A stretch of DNA of 64,000 nucleotides, taken from Lactobacillales bacterium (lineage in GTDB: Bacteria; Bacillota_I; Bacilli_A; RF39; UBA660). Where the stretch lies: the NCBI GenBank assembly GCA_015059545.1, contig SVAG01000004.1:90361-154360 (forward strand), written 5' to 3'. The notes beneath the pieces were generated by a model. The model was not told the DNA's origin and ran no database searches. It saw nothing but the letters and a program-made list of their open reading frames with translations. The translations under genes and the position numbers were made by a program. Shown piece after piece: positions 16,483 through 40,344 of this stretch (its first letter is position 1; every line of letters begins with the position of its first letter).

Positions 16483-16489
16483 TAGATAG

Positions 16490-16712
16490 TAAATACAAAG
16501 AAAAAGAGGAGTAATTATAGGCGTTTTATAGAGAGTTAGTGGTAGGTGTAAACTAATAAACAAATATAATGAAGGTAGCTTTGGAGTAGAATATCTGAAT
16601 ATTTAGGATATTACGTAATTATGCGTTAAATAAAAGAGGTAATTATTTAATTACAAATTAAGGTGGTACCACGTATAATCACGTCCTTATATAGGATGTG
16701 ATTTTTTATTTG
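16490..16712 (+). promoter_or_regulatory. T-box leader, probably tRNA-Val responsive
   Basis: The T-box sequence AAGGTGGTACCACG is at 16660-16673. Stem I begins with GAGAGTTAGTGGTAGGTG near 16532 and contains GAAGGTAGC (16571-16579), in which GTA (16575-16577) would be the specifier codon for valine. An intrinsic terminator follows: ATCACGTCC and GGATGTGAT arms (16678-16702) with a T run. Uncharged tRNA would stabilise the antiterminator and allow transcription of the HD paralogue and valS. The specifier is inferred from position and from valS downstream. Confidence 0.93.
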
Positions 16713-30212: not shown

Positions 30213-31685
30213 ATGAATAATTCTAATAATGAGATGGACTGGGCAGGAAGTATTTTTAATCAACAACCAGTAAATCCAATAAATAATGTAGGAACACCAC
30301 AAACAAATAGTATTCCTCAAGTAGAAAATAAAATACAACCACAACAAGTGAATCCAACAAGTAATGTAGGAATAGCTCAAACAAATAGTATTCCTCAAGT
30401 AGAAAATAAAGTACAACCACAATCAATAAATTCAACAAGTAATGTAGGAATGGCACAAACAAATAGTATTCCTCAAGTAGAAAATAAAGTACAACCACAA
30501 TCAGTAAATTCAACAAATAATGTAGGAATAGCTCAAACAAATAATATTGCTCAAGTAGAAAATAAAATACAACCACAACCAGTGAATTCAACAAGTAATG
30601 TAGGAATAGCTCAAACTAATAGTGTTTCACAAGTAGAAAATAAAGTACAACCACAACCAGTGAATTCAACAAGTAATGTAGGAATAGCTCAAACAAATAA
30701 TATTCCTCAAGTAGAAAATAATATGAATCAACAAACTAATAGTTCTCTAAATACTCAAAGTGATAATGAAAATTTATTAAGAGCTTTTATTGGAAAAAAT
30801 TATGAAAAAATAACGACAAGAGTATTTAATTTTGCAGGTTTCTTTTTTACAACGTTATATATGTTTTATAGAAAAATGTTTTTATATGGATTAATTGTAT
30901 TTATATTAAATTTAATTATTATTAATGTTATAAAAAATATGTTTGTTACATTAGCATTTAATATTTTTGTTGGTTTATTTGTTAATAGAATATATTTAAT
31001 GTATGCTAAGAAAAAAATTAAAAATATTGAAAATGCAAATCCACAAAAAAGTGAAAGTGAAAAAGCTGTTTTATGTGAAGTTAAAGGTGGAACAAGTGTA
31101 GGTAATGTTATTTTAGGATTGATTGTTGAATTTGTAATTGCAGTTGTTATTGTTATTATCATGTCTCTTGTAGGTATTGCATCTATTTTTGGTAGCTTAT
31201 TTAAATCACCAATGGATAACTATGAAAAAAATTATACGGTTGATGGTCCTTATGATGGTTCAATGAGTTATAGTACAACAGTTAAACTTAAAGATGAATT
31301 TGATATGGATGTACCTGATGACTTTGTAGAAGGATTTATGCATGATGAAGCTAGTTATAAATATGAATATAGTGAAAGTGAAGGTTCAACAAGCATATGT
31401 AGTTTTTCATTTGCTAAAGTACTAGGATATTCATCAGCTTCTAAATTAGCTAATGAAATGTCTAGTTATTATAGTAATAGTGAAGCAACACCTGTAGCAG
31501 TTAAAATAGTTAATGATATTAATTGGTATCATTTCTCATTTGATGGAATGATGGATATGGATGAAATGTATTTAATGAATAAAGGAAAAGATGTATATTT
31601 ATTACACTTTGAAATAGATGATGATCGTTTAACAGAATGTAATAAGTATAAAAATGAAGTTATTAATTCAATAAATGTAAAATAA
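30213..31685 (+). CDS. Repeat-rich membrane protein with DUF2628-like segment
   Basis: 490 aa. Residues about 15-175 are six near-identical 26-residue units rich in Gln, Asn, Val and Pro, with NSIPQVENK and TSNVGIAQ in each. After a linker, FNFAGFFFTTLYMFYRKM followed by hydrophobic segments resembles the DUF2628 membrane module (about residues 205-270), and a third segment lies near 305-330. The C-terminal 130 residues (VDGPYDGSMSYSTTVKLKD onward) form a soluble domain, likely extracytoplasmic. Function unknown. The tail suggests a cell-surface or stress role and the repeats a flexible spacer in the cytoplasm. GGAGGGG ribosome site. Confidence 0.7.
   Translation: MNNSNNEMDWAGSIFNQQPVNPINNVGTPQTNSIPQVENKIQPQQVNPTSNVGIAQTNSIPQVENKVQPQSINSTSNVGMAQTNSIPQVENKVQPQSVNSTNNVGIAQTNNIAQVENKIQPQPVNSTSNVGIAQTNSVSQVENKVQPQPVNSTSNVGIAQTNNIPQVENNMNQQTNSSLNTQSDNENLLRAFIGKNYEKITTRVFNFAGFFFTTLYMFYRKMFLYGLIVFILNLIIINVIKNMFVTLAFNIFVGLFVNRIYLMYAKKKIKNIENANPQKSESEKAVLCEVKGGTSVGNVILGLIVEFVIAVVIVIIMSLVGIASIFGSLFKSPMDNYEKNYTVDGPYDGSMSYSTTVKLKDEFDMDVPDDFVEGFMHDEASYKYEYSESEGSTSICSFSFAKVLGYSSASKLANEMSSYYSNSEATPVAVKIVNDINWYHFSFDGMMDMDEMYLMNKGKDVYLLHFEIDDDRLTECNKYKNEVINSINVK
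30255..30722 (+). repeat. Six tandem 78-base coding repeats
   Basis: Units start at 30300 and every 78 bases, with CAAACAAATAGTATTCCTC at each start. They differ by only a few substitutions, mostly third position. In frame, 26 codons per unit, so copy-number change by slippage keeps the gene open. Confidence 0.9.
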
Positions 31686-32398: not shown

Positions 32399-33238
32399 AT
32401 GAATAAAGTAATTGATTATAATGAAAAGATATTTGAAAACATAAAACATTTTGATGAGTATGGAAATGAGTATTGGAGTGCTAGAGAGTTAATGCCATTA
32501 CTTGAATATAGTAAATGGGAAAATTTTAATAAAGTTATAAAAAGTGCGATGATTGCTTGTGAAACTAGTAAAAATGATCTTTATGACCATTTTCCTGAGT
32601 TCAGGAAAATGGTTGATATAGGTTCAAAAACAAAAAGAGAAATCATAGATTATCACTTATCAAGATATGCATGTTATTTAATAGTACAAAATGCTAATCC
32701 CAAAAAGAAATCAGTAGCTTTAGGACAAACATATTTTGCTATTCAAACTAGAAAACAAGAAATAACTGAATTAGAATATTCACGTCTTTCAGAAGATGAA
32801 AAAAGATTATATAGAAGAAAACAAACAAAAGATGGTAATAAAACATTATATAAAATTGCTAAAGAAAAAGGTGTTAAAAATTTTGATAAATTTACTAATG
32901 CTGGATATAAAGGGTTATATAATGGTGAAACTGCAAATGATATTGCAAAAAGAAAAGGTTTACGTTATAGAGAAGATATATTAGATAATATGGGAAGTGT
33001 AGAATTAGGTGCTAATATTTTTAGAATAACTCAGACAGAAGCTTTATTAGAAAAACAAAAAATTCCTAGTGAACAGACTGCAACTAATACACATTATAAA
33101 GTTGGAAAAGCTGTTAGAGATACTATAAAAAAACTTGGTGGTACTATGCCAGAAGATTTACCAACTCCAGAAAAATCTATAAAAGAATTAGAACGTGAAG
33201 AAATATTAAAACTAGAAAATAATAATTTGACAAAATGA
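32399..33238 (+). CDS. dinD: DNA damage-inducible protein D
   Basis: 279 aa, colinear with E. coli DinD (274 aa): EYWSARELMPLLEYSKW, VDIGSKTKREIIDYHLSRYACYLIVQNANP, LGQTYFAIQTRKQE, NMGSVELGANIFRITQTEALL and a C-terminal LGGTMPEDLPTPEKSIKELE. DinD is an SOS protein that in E. coli inhibits RecA-filament activities in vitro. The N-terminal part is a Bro-N-type domain. GGAGGTATAA precedes the ATG. LexA-like box upstream supports damage control. A perfect 13-base-arm inverted repeat lies within the gene at the site corresponding to that in the Bro-N gene at 3811. Confidence 0.95.
   Translation: MNKVIDYNEKIFENIKHFDEYGNEYWSARELMPLLEYSKWENFNKVIKSAMIACETSKNDLYDHFPEFRKMVDIGSKTKREIIDYHLSRYACYLIVQNANPKKKSVALGQTYFAIQTRKQEITELEYSRLSEDEKRLYRRKQTKDGNKTLYKIAKEKGVKNFDKFTNAGYKGLYNGETANDIAKRKGLRYREDILDNMGSVELGANIFRITQTEALLEKQKIPSEQTATNTHYKVGKAVRDTIKKLGGTMPEDLPTPEKSIKELEREEILKLENNNLTK
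32586..32613. repeat. Intragenic perfect inverted repeat in dinD
   Basis: ACCATTTTCCTGA and TCAGGAAAATGGT arms (13 of 13) around a two-base centre. It encodes the residues around HFPEFRKM with codons GAG, TTC and AGG, which are rare here next to GAA, TTT and AGA. Confidence 0.9.
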
Positions 33239-33245
33239 AAAATAC

Positions 33246-33274
33246 TTGACAAAAAAAGTTTAATATTATAAAAT
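33246..33274 (+). promoter_or_regulatory. Promoter of the first riboswitch unit
   Basis: TTGACA (33246-33251), 17-base spacer, TAAAAT (33269-33274). Transcription would start near 33281, at the first base of the conserved RNA element. Confidence 0.7.
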
Positions 33275-33280
33275 AACATA

Positions 33281-33388
33281 GCAAGTGAGGAGATATAAGC
33301 AATTTATGTGAGCTATCTCGGGTTAATAGCCTACACAATTATTAAAGTAATTGGAGTCACGAATAATAATTTATTCGTGGCTTTTTTG
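33281..33388 (+). ncRNA. Riboswitch copy 1 (candidate guanidine-IV / mepA motif) with terminator
   Basis: GCAAGTGAG, then a six-pair stem GAGATA (33290-33295) with TATCTC (33314-33319) closing an 18-base loop that ends TGTGAGC; then GGGTTAATAGCCTACAC, a hairpin CAATTA/TAATTG, and GGAGTCAC (33353-33360). The last bases also form the 5' arm of a terminator: AGTCACGAATAA with TTATTCGTGGCT and a T run to 33388. Folding of the conserved part would thus compete with the terminator, an ON-switch design. A second copy with compensatory stem changes is at 34028. Naming as guanidine-IV is from recollection of that class (two hairpins, ON switch, ABC-2 and MATE exporters) and was not searched. Confidence 0.75.
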
Positions 33389-33421
33389 TATTTTTTTACA
33401 CGAATAAGAAGGAGGGATAGT

Positions 33422-34045
33422 ATGATAAAAAATTTGGAAACATTATCTGATAAGGAAAAATTAAAAATGATATTGAATGGATCTAGTTATGCAATGCATG
33501 TAGCTTATTCAGATAAAGAAATGTATGAAAAATCTAAAGAAGGAAAATTAGAAAATATAGAAGAGTATCAAAAACGTGATATAAATATTCTTTCATTATT
33601 AGAAGGATTAGGATATCCAATGGATGAATTAGGAACATATTTATATAAAGATGTTATTGTAGAAGTGTATGAAATTGTAAAAGATGTTTCTAAAAGAACT
33701 GATATGGATAAATGTAGAGATTTAATGAAAGAATTAAATGATGCTTATTCTAATTTTTATAGATGGATTGCACGTGATGATAAAGAAATGGGAATTGCAT
33801 CATTTCATTTATATATAGAACAAGCTATATCAAAAATAGATGAAGAAGCTATTGATCAAGAATTAGCTATTAAAGTATTTGGATCAAATCCAGAAGATAT
33901 GAATTATGGATTACAAGCATTCCAATTAGCGTCTTATGTAGCTAATCATTATTCAATGAAACCAGAATTTAACAAACAAAAAATAATGAGTTTATCAAAT
34001 TTACAAAAAAACATTAAATTAAAAAATGCAAGTGAGTGTGTATAA
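33422..34045 (+). CDS. Spo0A C-terminal-domain-like protein
   Basis: 207 aa from the ATG at 33422 after AGGAGGGATAG; the open frame from 33308 is the riboswitch and is not translated. Middle part INILSLLEGLGYPMDELGTYLYKDVI resembles the start of the Spo0A DNA-binding domain (IxxIIHEIGxPxHxKGYxYLxxAI), and later IARDDKEMGIASFHLYIEQAI and KVFGSNPEDMNYGLQAFQLASYVANH fit its remaining helices loosely. No receiver domain is present. It could be a small transcription regulator or a DNA-free relative. It sits alone between two copies of the same riboswitch. Assignment is tentative. Confidence 0.45.
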   Translation: MIKNLETLSDKEKLKMILNGSSYAMHVAYSDKEMYEKSKEGKLENIEEYQKRDINILSLLEGLGYPMDELGTYLYKDVIVEVYEIVKDVSKRTDMDKCRDLMKELNDAYSNFYRWIARDDKEMGIASFHLYIEQAISKIDEEAIDQELAIKVFGSNPEDMNYGLQAFQLASYVANHYSMKPEFNKQKIMSLSNLQKNIKLKNASECV

Positions 34046-34135
34046 GTATTTAATGCGAGCTACACAGGGATAAAATCCTACACGTGAAAACACGGAGTCA
34101 CAATCTATTTAATAGATATGATTCTGTGTTTTTTT
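34028..34135 (+). ncRNA. Riboswitch copy 2 (candidate guanidine-IV / mepA motif) with terminator
   Basis: Same layout as copy 1: GCAAGTGAG (34028-34036), stem TGTGTA (34037-34042) with TACACA (34061-34066) around an 18-base loop ending TGCGAGC, AGGGATAAAATCCTACAC, hairpin CGTG-AAAA-CACG and GGAGTCAC (34094-34101). All six pairs of the first stem are kept although five of the six base pairs differ from copy 1. Terminator: AACACGGAGTC (34089-34099) with GATTCTGTGTT (34120-34130) and T run. It begins inside the last codons of the preceding gene and leads into the ABC-2 exporter operon. Confidence 0.78.
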
Positions 34136-34178
34136 GTATTCTAATATGTTATAATTATTATAATAGGGAAGTGATAGT

Positions 34179-35159
34179 ATGAAGATTATAGAAGTAAAAA
34201 AATTATTAAAAGAATATAAATATAAAGTAAAAGATGAAAAAAAAGGATTCTTTTATAATTTATTTAATGAAAAAGAAAAAGTATTAAAAGCTGTAAATAA
34301 TATTTCTTTTGATATTGAAGAAGGAGAAACTGTAGCTTTTATTGGACCAAATGGTGCTGGTAAATCAACTACAATAAAAATGTTAACAGGTATTTTATAT
34401 CCAACAAAAGGTGAAATAAAAATATGTGGATTAACACCTATTAAAGATAGGAATGAATTAGCTTATAATATTGGAACTGTATTCGGACAAAGAAGTCAAT
34501 TATTACCAAATTTACCATTAACAGAAAGTATGGAAATGTTTGGAACTATGTATGATATGGATAAAAATCAAATAAAAAAAAGAACTAAAGAATTAGTAGC
34601 GTTATTTGAATTAGAAGAATTTATAAATCAACCTGTTAGAAAGTTATCTTTAGGGCAAAGAATGAGAGCTGAAATCGCAGTTTCATTAATTCATAGCCCT
34701 AAAATTATCTTTTTAGATGAGCCTACAATTGGATTAGATGTAGTCTCAAAAAAGAATCTAAGAGATTTATTAATCAAAATTAATAAAGAAGAAAAAGTCA
34801 CAATCTTTTTAACAAGTCATGATACTGAAGATATTCAAAGTATATGTGATAGATGTATAATCATAAATCATGGAAAAATAATTATTGATACTTCTACAAA
34901 ACAATTAATGAAAGATTATGTAAAAAATAAAAATATTATTATAACTCCTAATACAGTATTTGAAGAATTTCCTGAATTAATAAATGGAGTAAAATATGAA
35001 AAGAAAAGTAAAAACCAAATAATTGTTAATGTAGATACTGAAGTAGTAAGTACTCAAAAAGCTTTACAAGATTTAATTAAAAAATTAGACATAGATGATA
35101 TTAATATTGAAAATGAATCACTTGAAAACATTATTAGAGGTATTTATGAAGAAAATTAA
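34179..35159 (+). CDS. ABC transporter ATP-binding protein of an ABC-2 exporter
   Basis: 326 aa. Walker A GPNGAGKST near residue 56, signature LSLGQRMR near 157, Walker B IIFLDEP near 177 and the H-loop TSHD. The N-terminal insert KKGFFYNLFNEKEKVLKAV is typical of ATPases paired with DUF990-type permeases (viologen-exporter-like). First gene of a three-gene exporter operon directly under riboswitch copy 2. Overlaps the first permease gene by 14 bases, so stoichiometry is coupled. Confidence 0.92.
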   Translation: MKIIEVKKLLKEYKYKVKDEKKGFFYNLFNEKEKVLKAVNNISFDIEEGETVAFIGPNGAGKSTTIKMLTGILYPTKGEIKICGLTPIKDRNELAYNIGTVFGQRSQLLPNLPLTESMEMFGTMYDMDKNQIKKRTKELVALFELEEFINQPVRKLSLGQRMRAEIAVSLIHSPKIIFLDEPTIGLDVVSKKNLRDLLIKINKEEKVTIFLTSHDTEDIQSICDRCIIINHGKIIIDTSTKQLMKDYVKNKNIIITPNTVFEEFPELINGVKYEKKSKNQIIVNVDTEVVSTQKALQDLIKKLDIDDINIENESLENIIRGIYEEN

Positions 35160-35943
35160 ATTTGCAATTACAGTCATAAAAATATTTATGAAGAATCAAA
35201 TACAAGATAAAACAAATTTAATATTAGATGTTTTCAATATGGTTTCAAGATGTTTAATAGTATTCTTACTATATGCATATATATTTAAGCTAAATAATGG
35301 AACTATAAATGGAGTAGATTATAAAACTACAATGTGGAGTATGTTTATATATTTTGGTCTAATGATATTAAATATAAGAAGATTAGATAATATTATTATG
35401 ACAGAAGTTAAAAGTGGTAATGTAGAAATGTTTATGAATAAACCAACTAGTTATTTATTAATTTCTTTTTATAAAGTTTTAGGACAAGGATTATTTTCGT
35501 TTTTATTTATTAGTTTATTGGGTTCTATAATTATGGCATTATTTGTTGGAATACCAAATTTAAATTTATCTATATTTATTCCAACATTTATAATTACATT
35601 ATTTTTAGGACAAATATTAGGATTAATGATATATGCAATAATAGGTTTAATGGCATTCTTTATTCAAGATATAAGACCTATACATTGGATAGTAGATAAA
35701 TTTGTAATGATTTTAGGAGGTAGTTATTTACCAATTTCAATGTTTCCACCTTTTATGAAGGCAATTGCTTTTTTAAGTCCATTTGGAGCTATTAATTTTG
35801 CTTCAAGTACTGTATATGAAACATGGAATAATGAATTTATTATAAGAATTGCTATACAAATAATATGGATAATAATATTTTATATATTATTAAAATTTGT
35901 TTATAACAAAACAAAAGAAAAAGCAATGATAAATGGAGGTTAG
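35146..35943 (+). CDS. ABC-2 family permease (DUF990-like), first
   Basis: 265 aa from the ATG at 35146, preceded by AGAGGT inside the ATPase gene; an upstream in-frame ATG at 35095 lies deeper in that gene and lacks a ribosome site. Six hydrophobic segments. AIIGLMAFFIQDIRPIHWIVDKFVMILGGSYLPISMFP is the conserved region of this permease group. With the next gene it forms the membrane channel of the exporter. Substrate possibly guanidine or a related cation if the riboswitch call is right. Confidence 0.85.
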   Translation: MKKIKFAITVIKIFMKNQIQDKTNLILDVFNMVSRCLIVFLLYAYIFKLNNGTINGVDYKTTMWSMFIYFGLMILNIRRLDNIIMTEVKSGNVEMFMNKPTSYLLISFYKVLGQGLFSFLFISLLGSIIMALFVGIPNLNLSIFIPTFIITLFLGQILGLMIYAIIGLMAFFIQDIRPIHWIVDKFVMILGGSYLPISMFPPFMKAIAFLSPFGAINFASSTVYETWNNEFIIRIAIQIIWIIIFYILLKFVYNKTKEKAMINGG

Positions 35944-35945
35944 TT

Positions 35946-36737
35946 ATGGGAAGTTTAAAATTAGCGATGTTAAATATTAAGAAAAATTTTAAAAATGAAA
36001 AAGAATTAAAAAGCTCGTTTATTATTTCTGTTGTTGGTATGGCAATAAATAATATAGCATTCTTAATTTTATGGTATTATTTTGGAAAAACAGTGGGAGA
36101 AATAAATGGATGGAAACCACTTGATATATTTGGTTTATATGGATTTACATCAACAACATTTGGATTAGTAGATTCTTTGTTTAATGGGTTATATAAAATT
36201 CCTGAATATATAACTACGGGTAATTTTGATAAATACTTATTAACTCCTAAAAATATATTATTAAAAGTATCAACATCTAAAATATCTACAAGTGCATTAG
36301 GAGATTTATTGTTTGGAATTGTATGTTTTATTATATTTGCTTTCTTTAATAAGTTAACAATAATTCAATTAATGTTATCATTATTATTGATTATTTTATC
36401 ATCAATAATTTTCTATTCATTTTCACTTATATGTATGAGTATTTCATTTTATTTAATGGATGGTCATAATGTTTCAACTGGATTGTATGGTACATTTGTA
36501 AGTAATTCACTATATCATGGTGGTGCATTTACAGGGGTTTTAAGAGCTATATTTATATTTATAATACCTTCGTTATTAGTAGGAGCAGTTCCTGTTGAAA
36601 TAGTAAAAGGTTTATCTTTAGATGGTTTAATAGTTGTTATCTTTTTAGCAACATTTTGGTTTTTATTTTCTGTTTTCTTTTTCTATAAATCATTAAGAAA
36701 ATATGAAAGTAATAATTTCTTTGGATTTGGTGGATAA
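35946..36737 (+). CDS. ABC-2 family permease (DUF990 / ABC2_membrane_6-like), second
   Basis: 263 aa, six hydrophobic segments. KSSFIISVVGMAINNIAFLILWYYFGK and FLTFTSTTFGL-type start, YITTGNFDKYLLTPKNIL and ISFYLMDGHNVSTG match the DUF990 group. It starts two bases after the first permease stop with GGAGGTTAGTT as ribosome site. Heterodimer partner of the first permease. Confidence 0.87.
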   Translation: MGSLKLAMLNIKKNFKNEKELKSSFIISVVGMAINNIAFLILWYYFGKTVGEINGWKPLDIFGLYGFTSTTFGLVDSLFNGLYKIPEYITTGNFDKYLLTPKNILLKVSTSKISTSALGDLLFGIVCFIIFAFFNKLTIIQLMLSLLLIILSSIIFYSFSLICMSISFYLMDGHNVSTGLYGTFVSNSLYHGGAFTGVLRAIFIFIIPSLLVGAVPVEIVKGLSLDGLIVVIFLATFWFLFSVFFFYKSLRKYESNNFFGFGG

Positions 36738-36763: not shown

Positions 36764-37366
36764 ATGAAATTTTATTTAGAAGAACCAACGATTGAAAGAA
36801 AAGAAGATGTTATAGATTATTTAAATGAACATGTTAAATATAATTCTAATATCAATGGAACAGGATCATTTGATAAAATATTAGATGGTTTTACTTATGA
36901 AGAATGCTTAGATAGAATAAAAAAACTAACTAATAGAGAATATGCTAAAAGTATTAATAGATGTCCAGGTAAAACATTTTTCTTAGTTAGAGAAGAAGAT
37001 AATAAAATAGTTGGTATGATAAATATTAGATATGATTTAAATGAAGAAATGCTTAAGTTTGGTGGACATATTGGATATGGTATAAGACCAACTGAAAGAA
37101 GAAAAGGATATAATAAAATTAATTTATATTTAGGACTACACAAAGCATATGAAGAATTTAATTTAGATAAAGTAATGATAGATTGTTCTGCAACAAATAT
37201 AGGTAGTGATAATACAATTAAATCATTAGGTGGAATATTAGAAAGATCAGAAGTAGATCCATCAGATGACACATTAACAAATGTTTATTGGATTAATGTA
37301 AAAGAATCATTAGAAAAATATAAAGATATTTATGAACCATTAATAAAAAAAGAAAAAACATATTAA
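36764..37366 (+). CDS. GNAT family N-acetyltransferase
   Basis: 200 aa. KIVGMINIRYDLNEEML and GGHIGYGIRPTERRKGYN carry the acetyl-CoA pyrophosphate loop (R/Q-x-x-G-x-G/A variant, RPTERRKGY). Forms a paralogous pair with the next gene (same GGHIGYG motif). AGGAAGTG precedes the ATG. The substrate is unknown. Confidence 0.88.
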   Translation: MKFYLEEPTIERKEDVIDYLNEHVKYNSNINGTGSFDKILDGFTYEECLDRIKKLTNREYAKSINRCPGKTFFLVREEDNKIVGMINIRYDLNEEMLKFGGHIGYGIRPTERRKGYNKINLYLGLHKAYEEFNLDKVMIDCSATNIGSDNTIKSLGGILERSEVDPSDDTLTNVYWINVKESLEKYKDIYEPLIKKEKTY

Positions 37367-37377
37367 GAGGTGATAGT

Positions 37378-37929
37378 ATGGAAAATATTTATTTAAAATT
37401 TCCAACAATTGAAGAAAAAGATAAATGGATTGAATACTTAAAAGAATATAGATTGGATAATTCAAAAGCAAAACCTTTAAGTTGTACAGAAGATTTAAAT
37501 TATGAAGAATGGTTAGAAAAAATAAATAAAGAAAGCAAAGGTATAGATTTAGAAGAAGGAAGAGTTCCATCAACAGTATATTTTTTAATGGATGAAGAAA
37601 GAATTGTTGGTAATTTATCTATAAGACATAATATTGATAATGATTTTTTATCTAAATATGGTGGACATATTGGATATGGAGTAAGACCTAGTGAAAGAAG
37701 AAAAGGTTATGCTACTAAGATGTTATATCTAGCATTAGAAAAATGTTCTGAATTAGGTATAGAAGATGTAATGGTTTCTTGTAAAGAAGATAATATTGGA
37801 TCAGCTAAAACAATAGAAAATAATGGTGGTATATTAAGAGAAGAAATTTTTATACCAGAAGAAAATACAAATTTTAAAAAATATTGGATTAATGTAAAAG
37901 AATCATTAATTGAAAAAAAGAAAAGGTGA
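37378..37929 (+). CDS. GNAT family N-acetyltransferase (paralogue of the preceding gene)
   Basis: 183 aa. RIVGNLSIRHNIDNDFLSKYGGHIGYGVRPSERRKGYATKMLYLAL is the GNAT core, almost the same as in the preceding gene. Both end with a similar YWINVKESL strand. AGAGGTGATAGT precedes the ATG, 11 bases after the preceding stop. TGA stop. Substrate unknown. Confidence 0.9.
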   Translation: MENIYLKFPTIEEKDKWIEYLKEYRLDNSKAKPLSCTEDLNYEEWLEKINKESKGIDLEEGRVPSTVYFLMDEERIVGNLSIRHNIDNDFLSKYGGHIGYGVRPSERRKGYATKMLYLALEKCSELGIEDVMVSCKEDNIGSAKTIENNGGILREEIFIPEENTNFKKYWINVKESLIEKKKR

Positions 37930-37933
37930 TTAT

Positions 37934-38692
37934 ATGATAATTAATACGTTTGATAATAAATCAGAAGCGATCATTAATCCTAAAAGAAAGGATAATGCAA
38001 TTAAAGTAGATGTTTGTATTGTTACATTTTCAAATATTATTGAACAATATATTTTAGATAATTATAATTGTGAAAAAATCGCAGAATATAAATTTGTAAC
38101 AGGAATAACACCAATTTATGGTTTTGAATATAATAATCATAAATTTGCTTTTTTTAAAACTTATGTAGGTGGACCTGCATGTGTTGGATCAATTGAAGAT
38201 GCTATATCTGAACTTGAAGTAGATAAATTTGTTTTATTTGGAGGAGCTGGATGTTTAAATAAAGAAATTTCAAAAGGTAAAATTATGATTCCTACAGAAG
38301 CATATAGAGATGAAGGTACATCTTATCACTATGCTCCAGCTTCTGATTATATTAATATTAAAAATAGTAATGTAGTTGCTGAATTTATGAAAGAATTTAA
38401 TATTCCTTATGTTTTAGGTAAAACTTGGACAACTGATTCATTTTATAGAGAAACTAAAAATAATTTTGAAAAACACAAAGCTGATGGTTGTATATCTGTT
38501 GAGATGGAATGTGCATCAGTAGAAGCTATGTGTCAATTTAGGAATTTAGATGTTTATATATTTTTTATGAGTGGAGATTTATTAGATGCACCAGAGTGGG
38601 ATGAAAGAAAAGTTCCAGGTGAAATAAAAGGAACACAACATGATGGTAGATATTTTGATATTGCTTTAAAATTAGCTAATTATATATTATAA
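37934..38692 (+). CDS. Nucleoside phosphorylase (PNP/UDP family)
   Basis: 252 aa from the ATG at 37934 after AAAGGTGATTAT; the ATG at 37910 lies inside the previous gene. FKTYVGGPACVGSIEDAISE, FVLFGGAGCLNKEISKGKIMIP and the EMECASVEAMC motif (Glu-Met-Glu binds the ribose) identify the uridine/purine nucleoside phosphorylase superfamily. It would split nucleosides with phosphate to base and ribose-1-phosphate. Base specificity cannot be told. Part of the acetyltransferase run. Confidence 0.88.
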   Translation: MIINTFDNKSEAIINPKRKDNAIKVDVCIVTFSNIIEQYILDNYNCEKIAEYKFVTGITPIYGFEYNNHKFAFFKTYVGGPACVGSIEDAISELEVDKFVLFGGAGCLNKEISKGKIMIPTEAYRDEGTSYHYAPASDYINIKNSNVVAEFMKEFNIPYVLGKTWTTDSFYRETKNNFEKHKADGCISVEMECASVEAMCQFRNLDVYIFFMSGDLLDAPEWDERKVPGEIKGTQHDGRYFDIALKLANYIL

Positions 38693-38714
38693 AGATAATT
38701 AAGGATGTGGTAAT

Positions 38715-39275
38715 ATGAAATATATAGGAACAAAAGAATTAGAAACAGAAAGATTAATACTTAGGAAACTAACAAAAGAAGATGCAGAACAAGCATATTT
38801 AAATTGGTGTAGTAGTGATGAAGTATCTAAATATGTTATGTGGGAAAAACATAGTAATATGGATGTAACTAAAAAATTATATGAATTATGGGAAAAAGAA
38901 TATGATAATTTAGATACTTATAGATGGATTGTTCAAATTAAAGATACAAATGAATTAATTGGAACTATTGATGTAGCTTCTAAAAAATTTATTAAATATG
39001 GTGCTTGTGAAATAGGATATTGTTATGGAGAAAAGTATTGGGGCATGGGATATGCTACTGAAGCATTAAAAGCTGTAATAAAATTTTTATTTGAAGAATG
39101 TGATACAAACGTTGTATTTGCAGAACATATGAGTAATAATATTGCAAGTGGTAAAGTAATGCAAAAAGCAGGTATGAAATATGAAGGTGTTCTTAGAAAT
39201 AGAATAATTGATAAAGATAATAATTTAAATGATTTAATTAGTTATTCAATAACAAAAGAAGAATATTTTAAATAA
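38715..39275 (+). CDS. GNAT N-acetyltransferase, RimJ/RimL-like
   Basis: 186 aa. Starts with ELETERLILRKLTKEDAEQAYLNWCSSDEV, the usual RimJ/RimL-type N-terminus, then GACEIGYCYGEKYWGMGYATEALKAVIKFLFE as the acetyl-CoA loop. AGGATGTGG precedes the ATG. Substrate unknown; may modify protein N-termini or small molecules. Confidence 0.9.
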   Translation: MKYIGTKELETERLILRKLTKEDAEQAYLNWCSSDEVSKYVMWEKHSNMDVTKKLYELWEKEYDNLDTYRWIVQIKDTNELIGTIDVASKKFIKYGACEIGYCYGEKYWGMGYATEALKAVIKFLFEECDTNVVFAEHMSNNIASGKVMQKAGMKYEGVLRNRIIDKDNNLNDLISYSITKEEYFK

Positions 39276-39286
39276 TAGGTGATAGT

Positions 39287-39781
39287 ATGAACTATGTAAT
39301 AAGAAAAAGAAAAAAGGAAGATTGCAAATATATTCAAAAAATAATAACAAGATGTTGGCAGGATACTTATAGAGGAATAATTAATGATGAATATTTGGAT
39401 TCATTAAGTGATAATGAAGAAGAAAGAATAAAAAATTCAGAAAATAATTTTGATGAAAATAGTACTTATTTAGTAATAGAAATAGATAATAAAGTAGTTG
39501 GATTTACAAAATATGGAGTATCAATAAAAGAAGGATATGGTGAAATATTTGCTTTATATCTATTAAAAGAATATCAAGGGAATGGTTATGGTAAAAAATT
39601 AGTTGCTAGTGCTATAGAAGAACTAAGAAAAATGAATTTTAATAAAATTTTAATAGGTTGTTTAAAAGATAATCCTTCCAATAAGTTTTATGAACATCTT
39701 GGAGGAAAAGTAGTTGATACTAGAATATTTGAAAGATCAGGACAAAAACTATTAGAGAATGTTTATTGTTATGATATATAA
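39287..39781 (+). CDS. GNAT family N-acetyltransferase
   Basis: 164 aa. EIFALYLLKEYQGNGYGKKLVASAIEEL is the acetyl-CoA site; NKFYEHLGGKVVDTRIF is the C-terminal strand. CWQDTYRGIINDEYLDSLS near the start is common in GNATs related to the one in the next gene, so these two are paralogues. AGGTGATAGT ribosome site. Confidence 0.9.
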   Translation: MNYVIRKRKKEDCKYIQKIITRCWQDTYRGIINDEYLDSLSDNEEERIKNSENNFDENSTYLVIEIDNKVVGFTKYGVSIKEGYGEIFALYLLKEYQGNGYGKKLVASAIEELRKMNFNKILIGCLKDNPSNKFYEHLGGKVVDTRIFERSGQKLLENVYCYDI

Positions 39782-39792
39782 GAGGTGACTAT

Positions 39793-40344
39793 ATGAATAT
39801 AAATTATAGAAAAACAACTATAGATGATGCATATGGAGTAGAATATGTATCCGCACATAGTTGGAAAGAAACATATACAGGATTTATGCCAGATGATTAT
39901 TTAAATAATAGAATTGCTAATATAGAAAATAAATTAGAAATAACAAAAAAATTTTTACAAGATAAAGATACTTATTATGTTGCTACTGTAGATGATAGAG
40001 TAGTAGGTATTTGTTATTATAATAAATCAGAAAATGAAAAGTATCATGATTATGGATTATTAGGAGCAATCTATGTATTAAAAGATTATCAAAAATTAGG
40101 TATAGGGAAAGAATTATTTAAAATAGCTATAAAAGGATTAATAGATATGGGATATAATAAAATGTATCTTGAATGTTTAGAAGGTAATCCAACTATTGAT
40201 TTCTATAAACACTTTGATGGTGAAATAGTTGAAACAATTGATTATCAAATAAAAGATTTTAGTGTTAAAGCTGATATAGTTTTATTTAATGATTTAGAAA
40301 ATATATTAAATTATTTTAATGAAGAAAAAAATATTAAAAGATAG
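39793..40344 (+). CDS. GNAT family N-acetyltransferase
   Basis: 183 aa. HSWKETYTGFMPDDYL near the start and LGAIYVLKDYQKLGIGKELFKIAIKGL as acetyl-CoA loop; TIDFYKHFDGEIVETIDY at the end. Paralogue of the preceding gene. AGAGGTGACTAT precedes the ATG. It ends eight bases before mutM and is probably cotranscribed with it. Confidence 0.9.
   Translation: MNINYRKTTIDDAYGVEYVSAHSWKETYTGFMPDDYLNNRIANIENKLEITKKFLQDKDTYYVATVDDRVVGICYYNKSENEKYHDYGLLGAIYVLKDYQKLGIGKELFKIAIKGLIDMGYNKMYLECLEGNPTIDFYKHFDGEIVETIDYQIKDFSVKADIVLFNDLENILNYFNEEKNIKR

Follow-up and report, generated by a model that had tools for sequence, protein, structure and literature searches.

A structured RNA outside the Rfam 15 cut-offs occurs twice before an exporter operon in uncultured Bacilli and is likely a transcriptional ON switch

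Results

The RNA brackets a Spo0A-like gene and leads into an exporter operon

The DNA analyzed here, termed the window, is a 64,000-nucleotide stretch of a genome of 1.19 Mb in 11 contigs. An original prediction had proposed that two copies of one structured, riboswitch-like RNA bracket a gene in the window and lead into an exporter operon. This arrangement was confirmed at the positions given in Table 1. The sequence blocks said to be common to both copies were all present: GCAAGTGAG (at 33281 and 34028), an 18-base loop ending in GAGC, GGG-TAA--CCTACAC, a short hairpin, and GGAGTCAC (at 33353-33360 and 34094-34101). The first stem (P1) reads GAGATA/TATCTC in copy 1 and TGTGTA/TACACA in copy 2, and four of its six pairs differ between them, not five as initially counted; the last two pairs, U-A and A-U, are identical in both. 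The full-length copies folded better than 200/200 dinucleotide shuffles (z of -4.83 and -4.84), and the folds were weaker relative to such shuffles when the copies were ended at GGAGTCAC (z of -1.23 and -1.72).

Table 1. Features of the locus, in positions of the window
Feature	Position	Strand	Basis or remarks
Sigma-70-type promoter TTGACA-17-TAAAAT	33246-33274	+	11/12 consensus matches
RNA copy 1, GAGATA subtype	33279-33360	+	Model matches of 78.8 bits (R1) and 74.3 bits (R2); covariation
RNA copy 1 helices	P0 5' strand GUGA 33285-33288; P1 33290-33295/33314-33319; P2 33320-33332; P3 about 33337-33352; GGAGUCAC 33353-33360	+	
Predicted intrinsic terminator 1	33353-33384 plus T run (to 33388)	+	5' arm starts with GGAGUCAC; fold; consensus scan
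Bracketed gene, 207 aa, predicted Spo0A C-terminal-domain-like DNA-binding protein	33422-34045	+	
RNA copy 2, TGTGTA subtype	34026-34101	+	Model matches of 82.4 bits (R1) and 81.3 bits (R2)
RNA copy 2 helices	P0 5' strand GUGA 34032-34035; P1 34037-34042/34061-34066; P2 34067-34079; P3 34084-34093; GGAGUCAC 34094-34101	+	
Predicted intrinsic terminator 2	34090-34129 plus T run (to 34136)	+	5' arm is P3 3' strand plus GGAGUC; MFE -34.3 kcal/mol
ABC transporter ATPase of ABC-2 exporter	34179-35159	+	PF00005, E 7.2e-31
Exporter membrane subunit 1	35140-35943	+	PF06182 (ABC2_membrane_6), E 3.2e-4, 21.0 bits, just below the cut-off of 22
Exporter membrane subunit 2	35946-36737	+	PF06182, E 2e-29
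GNAT-family N-acetyltransferase, likely in the same operon as the exporter	36764-37366	+	PF13302, PF00583

The product of the bracketed gene had no Pfam match and is predicted to fold like the DNA-binding domain of Spo0A. Small unnamed proteins similar to it by eye follow the RNA at other loci, among them L028, L077, L093, and L106. Behind the exporter, a row of five GNAT-like ORFs and a nucleoside-phosphorylase-like ORF occupies 36764-40344, two of the GNATs being labeled by profiles and the rest by eye. The gene directly upstream of the locus (32399-33238) corresponds to the equivalog of DNA-damage-inducible protein D (DinD; NF008573). The N-terminal part of another ORF (30213-30700) is made up, by eye, of NSTSNVGIAQTNSIPQVENKVQPQ-like repeats of about 24 residues.

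Distribution of the RNA and the genes that follow it

A covariance model (R1) was built on 19 copies of the RNA, including both from the window. Among 193 sampled genomes of the window's family, R1 gave 40 matches in 26 genomes, two of them in the window's own genome, and none in the remaining 167. Given these matches, the two-copy pattern is, at the sequence level, far beyond chance. A sequence pattern was found in 14 of the 193 genomes; one of these matches (L010) probably arose by chance; by eye it looked like coding sequence, and it was dropped. In samples of the class and of the phylum, 7/395 and 2/392 genomes matched, all within the same family, under stricter filters by which weak relatives may be missed. 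With model R2, 20 of 341 genomes of a Clostridia-type class around a Caloramator record matched, three of which (G675, G676, and G679) were already known from the pattern scan.

The pattern scan of named genomes returned at least 112 stretches (L054 to L165). Among the stretches listed, 111/112 were also matched by the models (79/80 with R1 and R2 and 32/32 with R2); L056, from Bacteroidaceae, matched neither R1 nor R2 and was dropped. The labels of the listed stretches were mostly those of uncultured Bacilli, including "Candidatus Coprovivens" and Onthousia (Bacilli incertae sedis), with others labeled Clostridia, and one was the isolate Caloramator australicus RC3. At its locus (L161, 5139-5219), the RNA is followed by a GNAT gene and then by an ABC ATPase and a membrane subunit, an exporter of the same kind as that of the window. 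Viral contigs contained no exact match to the pattern.

The tallies below are based on 152 RNAs made distinct by exact sequence only, so that close relatives remain in them; a few degenerate copies (L115 twice, L042, and L043) are included, the coordinates at L111 are those of the R2 match, and 45 model matches in L134 to L165 were left out of all of them. The genes after the RNA chiefly encode ABC-2 exporters and GNAT acetyltransferases: within the first four ORFs after 149 RNAs, an exporter ATPase was found in 75 cases, a GNAT in 56, and either in 115. Further types were the Spo0A-like protein, nucleotidyl- and methyltransferases, peptidases, and a glutaminyl-tRNA synthetase. For 130 gene-proximal RNAs, the first ORF belonged to the BLAST cluster of the window ATPase in 38 cases and to the Spo0A-like cluster in 17, and 31 first genes had no family name (12 classed as "other" and 19 in three unnamed clusters).

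Individual loci add to this range. One Clostridia-type genome (G795; L189 and L195 to L199) carries six copies, which precede GNATs, a methyltransferase, a ferredoxin-like/GNAT fusion, an HD protein, and a metal-uptake-like lipoprotein gene; the copy before this last gene (L199) is weak, and the nearest ORF start is 287 nt away. At L191, the RNA (1501-1595) is followed after 56 nt by a gene for a class I (E/Q) tRNA synthetase (PF00749), which can be read as a glutaminyl-tRNA synthetase and continues past the end of the locus. It is possibly a spare resistant enzyme.

Consensus structure and covariation

Sequence comparison gave an RNA of four helices, in which P0 (GUGA/UCAC), a short helix of 4 bp, encloses a junction of P1, P2, and P3. 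P1 has 6 bp with an inner 3-bp stem, and P2 opens with a G-U pair. Fourteen unpaired core bases were nearly invariant in a mutual-information analysis, some of them fixed by the patterns used for collection. In the alignment of 19 sequences, 93.5% of the cells were paired; with 111 distinct aligned rows, the proportion was 93.8%, and 17 of the 21 pairs were changed on both sides. The covariation score of the 111 rows was 0.506, whereas shuffles gave 0.197 and slid versions of the structure did not exceed 0.113.

Five measures were compared with shuffles for each alignment. The cells paired, the cells changed on both sides, and the covariation score lay above 500/500 shuffles and every slid version. 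Two measures for the 19 sequences and one for the 111 rows did not clearly exceed the shuffles: further pair types in both alignments (415/500 and 101/500, respectively) and the pairs changed in the 19-sequence alignment (48/500). When the 111 rows were examined helix by helix, P0 and P1 were paired in at least 99.8% of the cells and the remaining stems in about 88%. The top column pairs in the mutual-information scan were those of P1, the inner P1 stem, P2, and P3, mixed with cross-terms within P1, and a noncanonical covariation was found beside the UAA/AGC internal loop (columns 25 and 116).

The collection patterns fixed certain letters (AAGTGAG/GAGC/CCTACA in one and AGCT/GGG/CCTACAC/GGAGTCAC in the other), so that the invariance of these letters in alignments A2 and A3, the latter fitted to the structure of the model, is partly by construction. 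The 53 of the 152 RNAs without either pattern were therefore examined separately. All four P0 pairs were present in 50 of them, two being truncated L115 copies in which the pairing is due to chance. The six P1 pairs were found in 45 of the 53 and GGAGTCAC in 42. Among these pattern-free RNAs, GUGA/UCAC was replaced by GCGA/UCGC at L027 and L031 and by ACGA/UCGU at L072, and P0 was broken in three copies (L041, L042, and L193). These compensatory changes provide the best evidence, from sequence comparison, that the putative switching helix P0 is real. Covariation of the stems, which had been proposed from the two window copies, is thus supported by the 19- and 111-row alignments and by the pattern-free copies, as expected of a conserved cis-regulatory RNA.

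P0 and an overlapping terminator are predicted to be mutually exclusive

The final GGAGTC had been proposed to form the 5' arm of a terminator as well, and folding gave a terminator-like hairpin with this arm in both window copies. Terminator 1 was the one terminator-like match within 33180-34200 in a consensus scan (mean of 0.0 in shuffles). Terminator 2 was missing from the output of this simple scan; it passed the strict terminator test and was supported by folding of the growing transcript. By the strict test, a terminator with GAGTC in its 5' arm was found after 126/151 RNAs, compared with 22/151 when the downstream DNA was shuffled. A looser test gave 148/151, compared with 56.8 for shuffled DNA, and discriminated less because it is so loose. 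The three RNAs without a terminator even by the loose test were the two degenerate L115 copies and L042. The L042 element (1501-1581) is a weak copy (34 bits) with GGAGGAAT at its end and an ATG soon after, an arrangement that looks like sequestration of a ribosome-binding site.

The terminator hairpin pairs the same UCAC that P0 needs. When the growing transcript was folded, the probability of P0 reached up to 0.93 in both window copies and was 0.00 once the terminator was complete. The covariation, the terminator tests, and the folding of growing transcripts are all computational, and together they bear out the ON-switch anatomy that had been suggested, with a closing helix and a terminator that exclude each other. 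A transcriptional ON switch is built on such an exclusion, and we infer that a ligand drives it.

A small structured element overlapping a terminator is the anatomy of protein-controlled antiterminators too. The RNA could thus be a site of the BglG/LicT type, at which a bound protein, not a small molecule held in an aptamer, blocks the terminator; this overlap fits such a site, as does the DNA-binding-like protein encoded between the copies. However, the Spo0A-like cluster comes first after just the 17 of 130 RNAs given above and has no member among the downstream ORFs of the Clostridia-type loci L178 to L199. Furthermore, no gene cluster was common to all loci in a comparison of the downstream ORFs, and the RNA has a multihelix core with the 14 nearly invariant unpaired bases, some of them pattern fixed. 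We judge a protein-bound antiterminator to be unlikely.

The RNA falls outside Rfam 15 cut-offs and differs in layout from guanidine-IV

At its cut-offs, Rfam 15 placed no family at the RNA in the window, in 12 named records, or in 19 RNA-bearing loci. The working controls were found (T-box, tRNA, tmRNA, and Guanidine-I, with one sugE control locus run beside the 19 loci), and the sole cut-off match in the window was a T-box leader (RF00230) at 16489-16691 with 135.8 bits. Overlaps in permissive searches were far below threshold, including those with sau-41 (18.5 versus 80 bits), rli56 (17.6 versus 47), STnc480 (20.5 versus 72), mir-186 (23.7 versus 70; E of 0.012), and the trpB motif (15.2 versus 59), among others. 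A permissive search of ten loci gave no match at the RNA, and none of the sub-threshold families recurred. Nothing recognized as this RNA was found in the literature, in a search that had subscription papers, preprints, and supplementary alignments outside its scope, so that absence from print is unproven.

The RNA had been tentatively named guanidine-IV. That class (GGAM-1, mepA motif) shares with it the logic of a transcriptional ON switch acting through an overlapping intrinsic terminator, as well as exporters and GNATs among the genes controlled. Its variant Gd4v (PMC9788692) is likewise an orphan ON-switch candidate, with GNAT genes and enrichment in gut hosts. The RNA could therefore belong to guanidine-IV or to Gd4v and respond to guanidine or one of its derivatives. 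The layout argues against this. In PMC9788692, PMC7736828, and PMC11611296, guanidine-IV and Gd4v are described as two hairpins joined by a pseudoknot, the second conserved loop lying inside the terminator hairpin. The RNA studied here, in contrast, has three hairpins inside the closing helix P0 and is fitted by a nested structure of 21 pairs. All of its conserved core, up to the final GGAGUCAC, precedes the terminator, and the terminator loop varies between copies. The guanidine-IV layout was rejected on these grounds, and so was that of Gd4v, which keeps it and adds an extra hairpin on the terminator.

Gene associations also differ. Guanidine-IV is associated with sugE, whereas PF00893 (SMR/sugE) was found in 0/61 genomes of the phylum, the window's own included, and R2 gave no full copy in 20 sugE loci, the one fragment (E of 0.42) being due to chance. 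In an Rfam search of these 20 loci, Guanidine-I was found in 10; as a source of a guanidine-IV reference, sugE loci yielded only Guanidine-I or no known RNA. According to PMC9788692, a PLP transaminase follows over half of the Gd4v RNAs; none was present among the labeled first genes here, 31/130 first genes being without a family name. Layout, the absence of a link to sugE, and the lack of an Rfam match at cut-off, in a library that may not include a guanidine-IV model, thus speak against the guanidine-IV label, and we consider this the least probable of the accounts weighed here. The Guanidine-I riboswitch (RF00442) resembles the RNA in its efflux and detoxification regulon, but its model gave no match at the RNA, and the sugE loci bearing Guanidine-I contained no full copy of the RNA.

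Promoters and copies in series

The -10 box of the window promoter ends 10 nt before GTGAG; therefore, the predicted transcript would start at the RNA. Promoters with at least 10/12 consensus matches and placed to start transcription at the RNA were found for 102 of 115 single or first copies, compared with 1.8 expected from shuffles. This position bears on a ribosome-mediated attenuator, in which a leader peptide stalled by translation inhibitors would let the polymerase through. Antibiotic-resistance leaders of this type are common, and the genes after the RNA resemble an antibiotic-resistance set. Against such an attenuator, only about 10 nt separate the end of the -10 box from GUGAG, both in the window and in many relatives, so that a ribosome-binding site could not be accommodated before the sole conserved start-like codon (GUG). 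Moreover, no reading frame is preserved in the P1 loop, whose length modulo 3 was 0, 1, or 2 in 49, 56, and 41 of the 146 RNAs parsed. Attenuation by a ribosome therefore appears very improbable.

Such promoters were present at only 3/33 second copies (1/11 of those behind a gene and 2/22 in closer pairs). Among 34 neighboring pairs of RNAs on the same strand, 15 were 113 to 159 nt apart, 7 were 244 to 263 nt apart, 11 were 401 to 1,039 nt apart, and 1 was 4,697 nt apart; degenerate copies figure in two L115 pairs and one L118 pair. The 11 pairs at 401 to 1,039 nt have space for a gene, or a gene remnant, between the switches. In 7 of the 11 second copies at such a distance, including that of the window, the stop codon of the upstream gene ends within a stretch that reaches from 4 nt ahead of the first base of GTGAG to 14 nt beyond it. 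The rarity of promoters at second copies and the stop codons at the start of the RNA indicate that the second gate lies mostly in the read-through transcript of the first. The window copies are thus probably gates in series. Copy 2 does show a weak promoter-like match (9 of 12), such as chance alone would produce, which leaves some doubt about the arrangement there. The UAA stop of the bracketed gene (34043-34045) falls within copy 2, and a ribosome terminating there could interfere with P0/P1 of the second gate.

Complete switches of the same class in series, each with its own terminator, are described as pseudo-cooperative in PMC9481103 (TPP, c-di-GMP, and others). The pairs described here resemble them in these respects, but belong to no assigned class and, in the 11 pairs, have room for a gene or remnant between the switches.

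Discussion

We think it likely, on the whole of this evidence, that both segments represent one structured RNA outside the Rfam 15 cut-offs and that they act as two ligand-controlled transcriptional ON switches in series. A new orphan ON-riboswitch class for a putative detoxification regulon is the most likely interpretation of the models and gene contents. According to the computed folds, P0 would dominate before the terminator is synthesized, and the terminator would win afterward. Without ligand, the terminator would form and transcription would stop; a small molecule bound in the core would hold P0 shut, allowing the polymerase to pass. In the window, the first gate would admit the gene of the Spo0A-like protein, and transcription of the exporter and acetyltransferase genes would require the second to open as well. 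If the second gate lacks a strong promoter of its own, a higher ligand level would be needed for the exporter to respond, or its response would be steeper.

The downstream genes likely protect the cell. With its exporters, acetyltransferases, and other modifying enzymes, the regulon suggests as ligand a toxic compound, perhaps an antibiotic or another natural product, or else a metabolite signaling its action. The chemical diversity of these genes would be equally compatible with one ligand, with a stress signal, or with a protein. Natural antibiotic-sensing riboswitches are themselves disputed (PMC9410878, on the aminoglycoside leader claim; PMC7266159). A further-reaching proposal, which we offer tentatively and hold to be somewhat doubtful, is that the new class directly senses an antibiotic or toxic natural product of neighbors in gut and anaerobic communities and drives a mixed resistance regulon, with two switches giving a graded alarm. 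If true, the mixed regulon would comprise ABC exporters, acetyltransferases, nucleotidyl- and methyltransferases, peptidases, and a spare GlnRS, and the graded alarm around the Spo0A-like gene would bring on the regulator first and the exporter second.

These results add a well-supported, apparently uncatalogued class of RNA regulator found in Clostridia and in uncultured Bacilli, one carrier of which, C. australicus RC3, is a named isolate. The presence of one gene between two switches of the same class offers a natural two-threshold circuit to test, and the class provides a direct route to asking which compound these bacteria guard against.
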